Assembly (NCBI GenBank): GCA_026989055.1
Contig: JALSKC010000052.1
Coordinates: forward strand, 62,001-126,000
Reading direction: 5' to 3'
From: Paracoccaceae bacterium
GTDB lineage: Bacteria; Pseudomonadota; Alphaproteobacteria; Rhodobacterales; Rhodobacteraceae
Length of the DNA: 64,000 nt
The translations under genes and the position numbers were made by a program. Position 1 is the stretch's first letter. Every line of letters begins with the position of its first letter. A model generated the notes under the pieces. The model saw nothing but the letters and a program-made list of their open reading frames with translations. It was not told the DNA's origin and ran no database searches. Shown here piece after piece: positions 23,533 to 30,920 of this stretch.

Positions 23533-25052
<1,520 letters not shown>

Positions 25053-25056
<4 letters not shown>

Positions 25057-25787
25057 TCATGCATATCACCCTGAAAGCCATCTCGGCCCTGCTGAGCTAC
25101 CCGAGCGAAGAACTGCAGCAGGCCGTCGGCGAAATCGCCGGGGCCCTGGCCGACGACGCCCGCCTGCCTGCGGCCTCTATCGAGGCCCTCGGCCCACTGT
25201 TGGAAGAGCTTTCCAAGTTGGACATATACGACCTGCAGGAACGCTATGTCGGGCTTTTCGACCGCTCGCGCTCGCTCTCGCTCAACCTTTTCGAACATGT
25301 CCACGGCGAAAGCCGGGAGCGGGGCGGGGCCATGGTGGAACTGCTGGAAACCTACCGGGCGGCCGGCTTCGAGCCGGCCACATCGGAACTGCCCGACCAC
25401 CTGCCGGTGCTGCTGGAGTTCCTCGCGATGCGTCCATTGAGCGAGGCGCAGGAGGTGCTCGAGGATGCCGCCCATATTCTGGAAGCCCTTCGGGTGCGGC
25501 TGGAAAGGCGCGCAAGCCCCTATGGCGCGGTCTTCGCGGCGCTGCTGGACTTCGCCGGGGCCGGGGCCGATGACGCCGCGGTTGCCGAACTTCTGGCCCG
25601 CGAGGAAGACGACCCGGACGACCTCGACGCGCTGGACGCGGTCTGGGAGGAAAGCGAAGTCACCTTCGGCCCCGATCCCAACGCCGGCTGCCCGCAGCTG
25701 CGCGACATGCTCGCCGCCATGGATACCCCGATCAACCCCGCCCCGGACACCGCACCGGGCACCGCCGCCCCGGCCGCGGCCGAGTGA
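25053..25787 (+). CDS. narJ: Nitrate reductase assembly chaperone NarJ
   Basis: System-specific chaperone of the NarJ/TorD family needed for cofactor insertion into NarG and membrane attachment; it is not part of the final enzyme. 244 residues, mostly helical. The start overlaps the narH stop, with a second ATG two codons later at 25059. Family features include ALLSYPSEELQ near the N-terminus and YVGLFDRSRSLSLNLFEHVHG, which matches the conserved NarJ core. The C-terminal tail is low-complexity, rich in proline and alanine. narI follows after 12 bases. Confidence 0.95.
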
Positions 25788-25799
25788 CAGGAGGCTCAG

Positions 25800-26498
25800 A
25801 TGAACGAATTCTTCTTTGGAACCTACCCCTATATCGCGCTCGCGGTGCTGGCCGTCGGCTCGATCGCGCGCTACGAACGCGACCCCTTCACCTGGAAATC
25901 CTCGTCGTCGCAACTTCTGCGCCGCAGGCAGCTGATCGTCGGATCGGTGCTGTTCCATCTCGGGGTGCTGGTGATCTTCTTCGGCCACCTGTTCGGCCTG
26001 CTGATCCCGCTCCGGATCTACGAGGCCATCGGAATCACCCCCGAGGTCAAGACGGTCATGGCCGCCAGCGCGGGCGGCGTCGCGGGCATCATCGCCATCG
26101 TCGGCGCGCTGATGCTGGCGCACCGCCGCCTGGTCGATCCGCGGGTGCGCGCCACCTCGTCCTTCTGGGACACGGCGATCCTGCTGCTGCTGATCGCCCA
26201 GCTCGCACTCGGGCTGATCTCGGTGCCGGTGTCGCTGGCCTCGATCGACGAAGGCGAAGTGGTCAAGTTCATGGCCTGGGCCTTCGGCATCTTCACCCTC
26301 GACCCGAAGGCCGCCAGCTACCTGGAACACGTGCCGCTGATCTTCAAGCTGCACATCTTCCTCGGGCTCACGATCTTCCTGATCTTCCCGTTCACCCGTC
26401 TTGTGCACATGCTCTCGGCGCCGGTGCGTTTCCTCTGGCGCCCCGGCTGGCAGATCGTGCGCACGCGGCGCAAGAAAGGGGCCAGGCAGACGTCATGA
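25800..26498 (+). CDS. narI: Respiratory nitrate reductase gamma subunit (cytochrome b)
   Basis: Membrane subunit that takes electrons from quinol through two b-type hemes. 232 residues with five predicted membrane helices. The four heme-ligand histidines are at the expected places: H53 and H63 in the second helix (LFHLGVLVIFFGHL) and H185 and H203 in the last (LHIFLGL; RLVHMLS). The stop overlaps the start of the following parvulin gene. Confidence 0.97.
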   Translation: MNEFFFGTYPYIALAVLAVGSIARYERDPFTWKSSSSQLLRRRQLIVGSVLFHLGVLVIFFGHLFGLLIPLRIYEAIGITPEVKTVMAASAGGVAGIIAIVGALMLAHRRLVDPRVRATSSFWDTAILLLLIAQLALGLISVPVSLASIDEGEVVKFMAWAFGIFTLDPKAASYLEHVPLIFKLHIFLGLTIFLIFPFTRLVHMLSAPVRFLWRPGWQIVRTRRKKGARQTS

Positions 26499-27298
26499 AC
26501 AGGCCGCTGTTCCCCGAGATCTCCGTCAACGGCCGGGTGATTCCGGCCGCCGAGATCGCCGCCGAGGCGCAGAACCACGCCGCCCCCGCCGGCAAGCCCG
26601 GCATCGCCTGGCGCAAGGCGGCGCGCGCGCTGGTGATCCGCGCGCTGCTGCTGCAGGAAGCCGCACGGCTGGGCCTGAAACCCGAGCCGCAGCAAACCGC
26701 CCCGGGGCGGCGCGAAACCGACGACGAGGCGCTGATCCGCGCCGTGACGGAGGCGAGGATCACCCCTGCCCCCGTCAGCGAACAGGATGCGCGCGCCCAT
26801 TACCTGGCGCACCGCGACCGCTTTCGCTCGCCCACGCTCTGCGAGGTGGCGCATATCCTGTTCGCCGCCCCTCCCGACGATGCGCAGGCCCGCGCGCAGG
26901 CCCGGGCGCGGGCAGAAAACGCGCTTGCCCGGCTGGTCGAACGCCCCGAGGGTTTCACCGCCCTCGCCCGCGACCTCAGCGACTGCCCGTCGCGCGAGTC
27001 CGACGGCCGGCTGGGCCAGGTCGGCGCGGGCGATACCGTGCCGGAATTCGAGGCGGCGCTTGAAACGCTGGAGCCGGGAGAGATCACTTCAACGCCGGTG
27101 GAAACCCGCTTCGGCTTCCACATTATCCGCGTTCTGGCCCGCGCCGAGGGCGCCCCGCTCCCCTTCGAAGCCGCCGCCCCGGCGATCCGGGCCGCCCTGG
27201 AACGGGCAGCCTGGCTGCGCGCGGCGCGGGAGCATCTCACAGCCCTGGTCGAAAGCGCGGACATCACCGGGATCGACATGCGCGCGCCCCTGCCCTGA
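26495..27298 (+). CDS. Parvulin-type peptidyl-prolyl isomerase of the nar operon
   Basis: 267 residues from an ATG overlapping the narI stop. The parvulin (PpiC/rotamase) domain spans about residues 115-225: EVAHILFAAPPDDAQ, FTALARDLSDCPS, DGRLGQVGAGDTVPEFE and ETRFGFHIIRVLAR. No signal peptide is seen, so it should act in the cytoplasm, in the style of NifM-like isomerases. Its coupling to narI suggests help in folding or maturation of nitrate reductase. The 194 bases after it hold a GC-rich inverted repeat around 27325-27342 without a T-tract. Confidence 0.88.
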   Translation: MNRPLFPEISVNGRVIPAAEIAAEAQNHAAPAGKPGIAWRKAARALVIRALLLQEAARLGLKPEPQQTAPGRRETDDEALIRAVTEARITPAPVSEQDARAHYLAHRDRFRSPTLCEVAHILFAAPPDDAQARAQARARAENALARLVERPEGFTALARDLSDCPSRESDGRLGQVGAGDTVPEFEAALETLEPGEITSTPVETRFGFHIIRVLARAEGAPLPFEAAAPAIRAALERAAWLRAAREHLTALVESADITGIDMRAPLP

Positions 27299-27492: not shown

Positions 27493-28569
27493 TCAGGCCT
27501 CGGGGCCAGGCGCGCCGGAACGCCCCTGTCGGGGCGGACGCATCCTGCCGGGGGGCGCAGCCGTTTCCAGAAGCTCCCGGGTCACCATCGTGGCCCGGGC
27601 CCGTCCCCGGCCCTTCGACTCGTAGAGCGCCAGATCTACATCGGACAGCATCCGGTCCAGATCCGGCCTGTCATAGAAACAGGATGTGGTAAACCCGATA
27701 CTGCCCGAGATCCGACAGAGCTGGCCCGCGTAATCTATCGGTTCTCCCAGCCGCGCCACGATGCGCTCGGCGATCGCCGACAGCTTTTCCGGATCGACCA
27801 GATCCTCGAAGATCAGCACGAATTCGTCGCCGCCGACCCGGGCCACCGTATCGCCCTTGCGGGTTTCGGACCGCAGGATCCCGGCCGTCACCTGCAGCAC
27901 GTGATCGCCGGCCGCATGTCCCAGCGTGTCATTCACCGCCTTGAAATGGTCCAGATCCAGATGCATCAGCCCGAACCTTTTTCCGCGCGCCACCAGATCG
28001 GCAAGCACCGCGTCCATGGCGCGCCGGTTGTGCAGCCCGGTCAGGGGGTCGCGCAGCGCCTGCTCCTCGGCTCGGCTGCGGGCCTGCTGAAGGCGGGCGC
28101 TGAGGCCGCGGAACTCCTCCATCACGGCGGTGTTCGCCTCGACCAGATACAGCATCTCTATCACCAGATCGGTGGGAGCGAAATCATCGTTTGACAGGCC
28201 GAACCGCCGCACCGCCTTGATGATCGACAGCCCGAAGGACAGGTTGATCAGCGTGCACTCGGCCCCGTCGAGCGCCACCATGACCCCCTTCAGGCGCAGA
28301 TCCGGGAAGGCCCGCAGGCGCAGCTGCAGGCGTGCCTCCCGCAGGGCGCGCAGATCGGAAAAGGTGCATATCCCGTGATGCTGGCGCCCCATTTCGAACA
28401 CTTCCAGAAAGCGCCTGCCGACAAGCTCCTCTTCCGGAAAGAGCCTGCTCAGGGTCGGCCCGGCATGCGTGATATGGCCGGAGGGGCGCACCAGCAGATT
28501 CATGGGCATGAGCCGGTCCAGCACGCGGCGCTCCAACGCCACGGCATCGCCATCCTTGCGCGCGGCCAT
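27493..28569 (-). CDS. Diguanylate cyclase with HNOBA-like sensor domain
   Basis: 358 residues. The C-terminal GGDEF domain is intact (RVGGDEFVLIF) with an inhibitory I-site RKGD five residues before it, so it should make c-di-GMP from two GTP under product inhibition. The N-terminal 150 residues (LMPMNLLVRPSGHITHAG, then VGRRFLEVFEMGR) resemble the PAS-like HNOBA domain that accompanies heme-NO-binding proteins in guanylate cyclases. A coiled coil (FRGLSARLQQARSRAEEQAL) joins the two. The start lies 1 base after the stop of the H-NOX-like gene, so the pair forms one operon and probably a signalling complex. It is convergent with the nar operon. Confidence 0.9.
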   Translation of the reverse strand: MAARKDGDAVALERRVLDRLMPMNLLVRPSGHITHAGPTLSRLFPEEELVGRRFLEVFEMGRQHHGICTFSDLRALREARLQLRLRAFPDLRLKGVMVALDGAECTLINLSFGLSIIKAVRRFGLSNDDFAPTDLVIEMLYLVEANTAVMEEFRGLSARLQQARSRAEEQALRDPLTGLHNRRAMDAVLADLVARGKRFGLMHLDLDHFKAVNDTLGHAAGDHVLQVTAGILRSETRKGDTVARVGGDEFVLIFEDLVDPEKLSAIAERIVARLGEPIDYAGQLCRISGSIGFTTSCFYDRPDLDRMLSDVDLALYESKGRGRARATMVTRELLETAAPPGRMRPPRQGRSGAPGPEA

Positions 28570-28570
28570 G

Positions 28571-29158
28571 TCAGAGCCGATCCGGCGTCAGCGAGAAACT
28601 GCGCCCGCGGGCGAAATCGGCATCGAGCAGCAGTGCCGAAACGACCTCTTCTCCGTTGCCCGCCCCCTTGTGTTCGAGCAGCGCCAGCGTGCCGTAGTCA
28701 TCGGCCATCGCCTGCAGGATGCCGACCAGAACATGGCCGAACCCCGGGCAGGCCCCGAAGCAGCGCAGCGTCAGCGCGCCGGGGGAGTGCTCGCGCACCT
28801 CGATCTGGGGCAGCCGGAGGTCGGGCACCGCCAGGCGCACCCGATCGGGCAGCTCGTCGAGCGAATGGAGGAATTCATGGAAGCTGTCGCCTCCGAAACG
28901 CAGGATCCGGCGCACCGGCTCCAGGTTCTCATGCGACACGAGATAGGTGCCCAGATCTTCCAGCAGGACATCGCGCGGCTTGTTCAGCAGGGTGCAGGCC
29001 GAATCCAGCGCGCGGAACGTCAGCTCGTCCGGGTAGCATATCATCGCCTCGAAGTCGCGCAGGCCGAGCCCGGCATGGCTGGCCACTTCTTCCCAGACGG
29101 CTTCACCATAAGTGTCACGCATGAAGCATTGCAGCGCGCGATTGATCAGACCGTGCAT
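28571..29158 (-). CDS. H-NOX-like protein lacking heme-binding residues
   Basis: 195 residues from the ATG at 29158 (MHGLINRALQCF), with AAGGGGAT upstream. The fold signature of heme-NO/oxygen-binding proteins is clear over the full length. However, the proximal heme histidine position (LDxLH in soluble guanylate cyclase and bacterial H-NOX) is proline here (LDELPDRV, P104), and the Y-x-S-x-R heme-propionate motif reads C133-F-G135-A-C137. The spacing to the following LPQIE motif agrees with ordinary H-NOX, so this is not an alignment slip. Heme binding in the usual mode is unlikely; another ligand, a metal bound through cysteines, or a purely structural role is possible. It is the first gene of the pair with the diguanylate cyclase. 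Confidence 0.88.
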   Translation of the reverse strand: MHGLINRALQCFMRDTYGEAVWEEVASHAGLGLRDFEAMICYPDELTFRALDSACTLLNKPRDVLLEDLGTYLVSHENLEPVRRILRFGGDSFHEFLHSLDELPDRVRLAVPDLRLPQIEVREHSPGALTLRCFGACPGFGHVLVGILQAMADDYGTLALLEHKGAGNGEEVVSALLLDADFARGRSFSLTPDRL

Positions 29159-29203
29159 CGACCATCCCCTTGCAAGTGCCCCCCGGAGCATAAGGGAGAG
29201 GGT

Positions 29204-30124: not shown

Positions 30125-30865
30125 CTATCCGGGCGCACCGCCGCCCGCCGGAGCCGCCGCGCCGGGCAGTCCGGCCTGCCCGGACAACCAGTCGGGCAGG
30201 CTGCCGATATCCGGCAGCACCGCATCGGCATGCGGCGCCAGCACCTCCGCTCCGGCCGGTCCGCTGAGCACCGCCACCGTCCGCATCCCGGCTGCCCGCC
30301 CGGCGCGCATGTCATGCGGGCTGTCGCCCACCATCGCGATGCTTTCCGGCGTCAGCCCGAGCCGCGCGGCAAAGGCCAGGCACATGCCGGGGCCGGGCTT
30401 GCTGCCGAATCCGCTGTCATGGCCGGCGATGAAGTCGAAACGCCCCGCGACCCCGGCCCGCGCCAGCTGCGCGCGCGCCACCTTCTCGCTGTCGTTCGTC
30501 GCGACTCCGCAGCGCACCCCGCTCCGCGCGAGCCGGTCGAGAAGCCCGGCCAGCGGCAGCTGCTCCACCGCAGCGACCCCGGCTGCGGTCTCCTCCAGCA
30601 GTGCGATCAGCGCCGCCTTGCGCATCGGGGCCAGCAGCGGCAGCGCCGCCGCCGCCACCTGCGGCACATCGCCGGCGACGATGATGCTGCCGGCCCTGAT
30701 GCGCTTCCGGGCCCGGTCGAACCCCCAGGCCTCGGCCAGAGCCCCGGCCAGCGCGGCATCGCCGGCCGAAAGCCGGTCGATCATCCCCGCCACCCAGGGC
30801 GCCCAGCTGCGCTGGAAGTCGAACAGCGTGCCATCCTTGTCGAACAGTATCGCCCGTATCAGCAT
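30125..30865 (-). CDS. HAD-superfamily hydrolase, phosphoglycolate-phosphatase-like
   Basis: 246 residues from the ATG at 30865. All four HAD motifs are present: I, LFDKDGTLFDF (nucleophile D9, D11); II, VATNDS; III, the lysine in GSKPGPG; IV, VGDSPHDMRAG. A helical cap follows motif I. The sequence fits phosphatases acting on small phosphorylated metabolites (Gph-like) rather than haloacid dehalogenases. It is divergent from the reductive dehalogenase gene with only 90 bases between the start codons, so the two could share control. The substrate is not assignable from sequence. Confidence 0.88.
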   Translation of the reverse strand: MLIRAILFDKDGTLFDFQRSWAPWVAGMIDRLSAGDAALAGALAEAWGFDRARKRIRAGSIIVAGDVPQVAAAALPLLAPMRKAALIALLEETAAGVAAVEQLPLAGLLDRLARSGVRCGVATNDSEKVARAQLARAGVAGRFDFIAGHDSGFGSKPGPGMCLAFAARLGLTPESIAMVGDSPHDMRAGRAAGMRTVAVLSGPAGAEVLAPHADAVLPDIGSLPDWLSGQAGLPGAAAPAGGGAPG

Positions 30866-30920
30866 GCCGCCTCGCCCGCCCTGCCGTTTCCGCCTGCCGT
30901 TCTCGCACAATCCGACGGCG

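Follow-up and report, generated by a model that had tools for sequence, protein, structure and literature searches.

H-NOX proteins of the ordinary kind respond to nitric oxide (NO) by loss of the Fe-His bond, after which the heme relaxes and its two subdomains rotate about a glycine hinge (PMC7108781). Kumar and Spiro (2017) described the absence of the axial histidine from the H-NOX proteins of Paracoccus denitrificans and Rhodobacter sphaeroides (PMC5588039). A large Group 5 was later defined around the P. denitrificans protein by Lee-Lopez and Yukl (2022), in which fewer than 10% of members carry the histidine, most carry proline, cysteine is not conserved and the hinge glycines are kept; these authors posed the question of how Group 5 proteins sense anything (PMC8738867). 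An hnoX mutant of P. denitrificans forms less biofilm, and the authors of that study inferred inhibition of the cyclase DgcA; NO still stimulates biofilm formation in hnoX mutants (PMC5588039). The H-NOX of Dinoroseobacter shibae (Dshi_2815) is reported to be a heme/NO sensor whose NO-bound form inhibits the cyclase Dgc1 (PMC7232146, PMC8846402).

The locus analyzed here lies in a stretch of 64,000 nucleotides from a Paracoccaceae bacterium (the window), and its coordinates and reading frame were confirmed. Its features are as follows.

28571 to 29158, minus strand: H-NOX-like (HNOB) gene, 195 amino acids, beginning MHGLIN and ending RL.
28847 to 28849, minus strand: codon CCC for Pro104, one base from the His codon CAC.
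Within the H-NOX protein, placed by alignment: P104; C133, G135 and C137; the hinge glycines Gly70 and Gly146; Pro117.
27493 to 28569, minus strand: partner diguanylate cyclase gene, with an HNOBA-like N-terminal region and a GGDEF domain.

One base separates the H-NOX stop from the start of the cyclase gene. The methionine at 29158 was favored over an upstream ATG at 29191 because relatives begin with MHGLIN and the sequence AAGGGG lies a few bases upstream; the alternative start, if used, would add at most 11 residues. The H-NOX is the single HNOB protein of the 2.77 Mb genome. On the plus strand, narH, a narJ-like gene, narI and a gene for a PpiC-type isomerase (23533–27298) converge on the pair, and upstream of the pair in the window is a HAD-like open reading frame (30125–30910, minus strand). 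Two relatives (L032, 1278–3910; L157, 480–1548) likewise have a gene for a HAD-type hydrolase immediately upstream of the pair, with DUF3572 ahead of it, and one of them also has a trimethylamine methyltransferase. HAD and MTTB are among the neighbor families in a published figure of H-NOX neighborhoods.

Residues 2–157 matched the Pfam HNOB profile (PF07700) with a score of 87.1 bits (cut-off 25.5; 1.6e-24). A sequence search of the PDB aligned residues 1–157 with the Nostoc H-NOX, the only gap being one residue long and lying early in the protein, before the ligand site. Nostoc H105 corresponds to P104, Y134, S136 and R138 correspond to C133, G135 and C137, and P118 corresponds to P117. All 11 canonical controls that cover these columns have the proximal histidine together with the Tyr, Ser and Arg of the YxSxR motif, which confirms the substitutions read in the initial annotation; the 13-residue spacing it gave from the ligand site to the LP motif holds as well. 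The protein therefore has the HNOB fold-family signature without the proximal histidine or YxSxR, in support of the earlier view that the standard heme site is not usable. Two hinge glycines and the proximal proline, whose roles in H-NOX have been described (PMC7108781), are retained, with equivalence assigned by alignment. An AlphaFold model (pLDDT 89.4, built from 50 family sequences) matched soluble guanylate cyclase (sGC) beta with a Z of 21.5 and the Nostoc H-NOX with a Z of 20.9 in VIA-align, both end to end, and the Foldseek comparison of the model with Nostoc H-NOX gave a TM of 0.81.

The closest systems share these features to different degrees. Pden_3719, encoded next to the GGDEF cyclase gene dgcA (Pden_3720) and the type example of Group 5, likewise has the proline and the glycine hinges, is about 37% identical to the window protein over 98% of its length (tblastn) and falls in the same family by alignment and tree. 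The near-unique C133/C137 pair belongs to the window protein, unlike the P. denitrificans H-NOX. The D. shibae protein is of the same subfamily and gene order as the window protein and also lacks the Tyr and Ser of YxSxR, but its proximal histidine has been kept or regained and Arg ends its motif, which reads C-I-W-H-R. The pseudo-H-NOX of sGC alpha similarly has the H-NOX fold without heme as part of a signaling enzyme; there, however, an N-terminal extension fills the cavity (PMC8196705), whereas in the window protein the fold starts with residue 1 and no such extension is present.

Relatives were widespread among the Rhodobacteraceae. HNOB proteins were found in 297 of 395 sampled genomes of the family, nearly all of different genera, and fell into two classes, a canonical one with MKG or MYG starts and an MHGLIN class that includes the window protein. 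A scan of named genomes recovered at least 581 relatives, and the 80 that were kept were from Rhodobacterales, bar one record labeled just Alphaproteobacteria. Searching 289 genomes across the class gave strong matches only in the family of the window genome, other alphaproteobacterial matches being far weaker, and no relatives were found in the viral contigs searched.

Conservation was surveyed in 289 non-identical, near-full-length subfamily sequences. Proline is the majority state at column 104 (209 members, 72%), and P104 is therefore not an isolated sequencing error. Histidine is present in 20 (7%), and the other 60 carry mainly Ser (12), Gln (10), Arg (10), Ala (7), Glu (7), Asn (6) or Gly (3), with Thr, Asp, Lys and Tyr in one or two cases each. 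A single base change in a proline codon is enough to give any of the most frequent replacements (His, Ser, Gln, Arg and Ala). Column 104 ranks only 100th of 193 in conservation. The invariant columns are W22, G70, R87, G90, P117 and G146 (G70, P117 and G146 each in 289/289), H2 is present in 267 members, and conservation reaches about 90% or higher in 45 of the 193 columns. These values agree independently with the published description of Group 5 (7% His, 72% Pro, hinge Gly in 100%). On sequence grounds, the window protein is a Group 5 H-NOX of the Rhodobacteraceae and not a curiosity of one genome. The novelty that the initial annotation implied for the change from histidine to proline does not stand, as it has been published for the whole group (PMC8738867, PMC5588039). 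What is new here is the census, the count of partners, the lability of the site and the placement of the His-bearing D. shibae sensor inside Group 5.

The same alignment bears on the cysteines, which had been put forward as candidates for thiol or metal chemistry. C133 is common (183/289, 63%), a qualification of the statement that Group 5 has no conserved cysteine, and heme-free redox sensing through a Cys-zinc site is known in the Vibrio cholerae H-NOX, which signals without heme in vitro (PMC7108781). The C137 column, however, ranks 185th of 193, and the residue occurs in just one other member. The window protein has cysteines only at positions 11, 41, 55, 133 and 137 and none beyond, so that the three Cys ligands for zinc of the V. 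cholerae type, which come from helix G and from the C-terminal strands, have no counterpart, and the Group 5 report describes no conserved cysteine (PMC8738867). A sensor built on C133 and C137 is highly improbable.

The coupling to an HNOBA-GGDEF cyclase claimed in the initial annotation was supported. The HNOBA match of the partner in the window is weak (24.6 bits), and its GGDEF motif and RxxD I-site are intact. Across the subfamily, a GGDEF gene lies directly downstream on the same strand in 287 of 288 members, and the exception is found where a contig ends. Regardless of residue 104, 286 partners retain the GGDEF motif and 283 retain the RxxD inhibitory site. As read from these gene orders and motifs, selection acts on the H-NOX/cyclase pair, not on the heme ligand. 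The H-NOX could instead be a decaying remnant beside a cyclase that acts alone, since the ligand site is labile and a few relatives have in-frame stops. Such decay is very unlikely given the practically universal pairing, the many conserved columns and the phenotype of the P. denitrificans deletion (PMC5588039).

Lability at column 104 was also evident on a tree made without the columns in question (about 187 columns, many weak branches), which required a minimum of 46 Pro/non-Pro switches and a minimum of 16 His/non-His switches. The earliest subfamily branches carry Asn or Pro, not His, and the direction of the Pro/His changes is uncertain on this poorly resolved tree. The window protein (Pro) groups with a protein of the same genus (Gln) and one from Marinosulfonomonas (Asp) with a support of 93, while the D. 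shibae protein (His) clusters with Arg and Pro proteins with a support of 90. A pair test on supported branches yielded four pairs only and had no power. Where residue 104 is His, position 135 is often Trp or His and position 137 often His, both in the former YxSxR motif. In a column scan without correction, the co-variation of His104 with Trp135 and His137 ranked highest (p = 2.4e-5 and 6e-4). This link was not retained, as disjoint tree pairs gave just 5:1 and 3:0, which is not significant. Trp or His at 135 with His at 137 may possibly represent a rebuilt heme site.

The window protein might still be a heme/NO sensor in which the same cavity holds heme through another residue or hydrophobic contacts and NO moves the hinge. 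We regard this as somewhat unlikely, though not implausible. The fold is predicted to be intact, H2 is almost invariant, NO sensing is the role usually given to the P. denitrificans H-NOX, and the window pair adjoins a nar operon. Against these points, the YxSxR propionate motif has been lost along with the histidine, and no convincing replacement ligand emerged when the non-His members were scanned for enriched His, Cys, Met, Tyr, Lys or Trp. H94 and H98, named in the initial annotation as possible replacement ligands, gained no support from that scan; H94 is not conserved (Val is commonest at its column) and H98 is present in 176 of 289.

The denitrification context also weighs on this question. 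A profile search found no NirS or NirK in the window genome despite the nar operon beside the pair, so that no dedicated enzyme would turn nitrite into NO there. Among the sampled carrier genomes, 150 of 218 lack both nirS and nirK, with NirS called at a score threshold of about 460 bits set for this analysis. The pair is thus not tied to denitrification, and the absence of both genes from roughly two thirds of the carriers, the window genome among them, stands against NO sensing. NO-producing genomes are nevertheless not rare among carriers of the proline form (49/155). A link between His-bearing members and denitrification was rejected, with nirS or nirK in 8 of 17 His-bearing versus 60 of 201 other carriers (p = 0.17, not significant).

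We favor, with a probability of about 0.5, a reading in which the window protein is a Group 5 partner that regulates the adjacent cyclase without a His-ligated heme, most likely as an NO-independent brake. With no histidine, there is no Fe-His bond for NO to break. By extension from the canonical H-NOX mechanism, the resting shape of the window H-NOX would resemble the NO-activated, Fe-His-broken state of an ordinary H-NOX, and the cyclase would be held under a constitutive brake that NO no longer controls. Output would then depend on expression level, or on a different ligand or protein that works through the glycine hinge. A new signal, as proposed in the initial annotation, may be involved. 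Counted in favor of a brake were the labile column 104 set against invariant G70, G146 and P117, the pairing with a cyclase whatever residue 104 is, the proline of the P. denitrificans homologue with its hnoX biofilm phenotypes, the reported inhibition of Dgc1 by NO-bound H-NOX in D. shibae and the lack of nirS and nirK in the window genome. Counted against it were the chance that heme is held by another residue, for which H2, present in 267 of 289 members, is a candidate, and the NO producers among carriers of the proline form.

A different small molecule, likely hydrophobic and possibly also acidic, could alternatively bind in the emptied heme cavity and work the same hinge. The best structural matches of the model outside H-NOX were Bet3/TRAPP subunits (Z about 9), one with bound palmitate, which hints at a shared hydrophobic-cavity fold in the predicted structure. 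Heme-mimetic drugs occupy the H-NOX cavity, and the conservation of H2 and the hinge would suit such a ligand as well. The Z to Bet3 is modest, however, and similarity of fold is not evidence of function; this alternative is improbable by our estimate. More broadly, Group 5 proteins may be heme-free hinge regulators for another ligand that control c-di-GMP in hundreds of Rhodobacteraceae, with heme/NO sensing regained repeatedly, for example in D. shibae, through return of the His (and Trp or His in the former YxSxR motif). This wider scheme is speculative and, on balance, doubtful.

The Rhodobacteraceae are a large family of ecological importance. Most of their genomes carry an H-NOX annotated as a nitric oxide sensor, and because the heme anchor is absent in most cases, the automatic annotation is misleading. 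Models of NO signaling through such proteins, including that of P. denitrificans biofilms, rest on an assumption. Since Pro and His members are close kin with the same partner, the group provides a natural experiment on the role of heme in H-NOX signaling.

Two further observations concern regulation and neighboring genes. The D. shibae hnox gene is reported to be under CtrA control. Within 250 bases upstream of the subfamily H-NOX genes, the CtrA motif TTAA-N7-TTAA was exact in 2 of 262 and present with one mismatch in 44 more, a weak signal (46/262 at up to one mismatch, versus 3% of shuffled sequences). Lastly, in the Marinosulfonomonas relative with Asp104, the pair is adjoined by a ferrochelatase gene, which encodes the last step of heme synthesis (L072, 1921–2910, minus strand).
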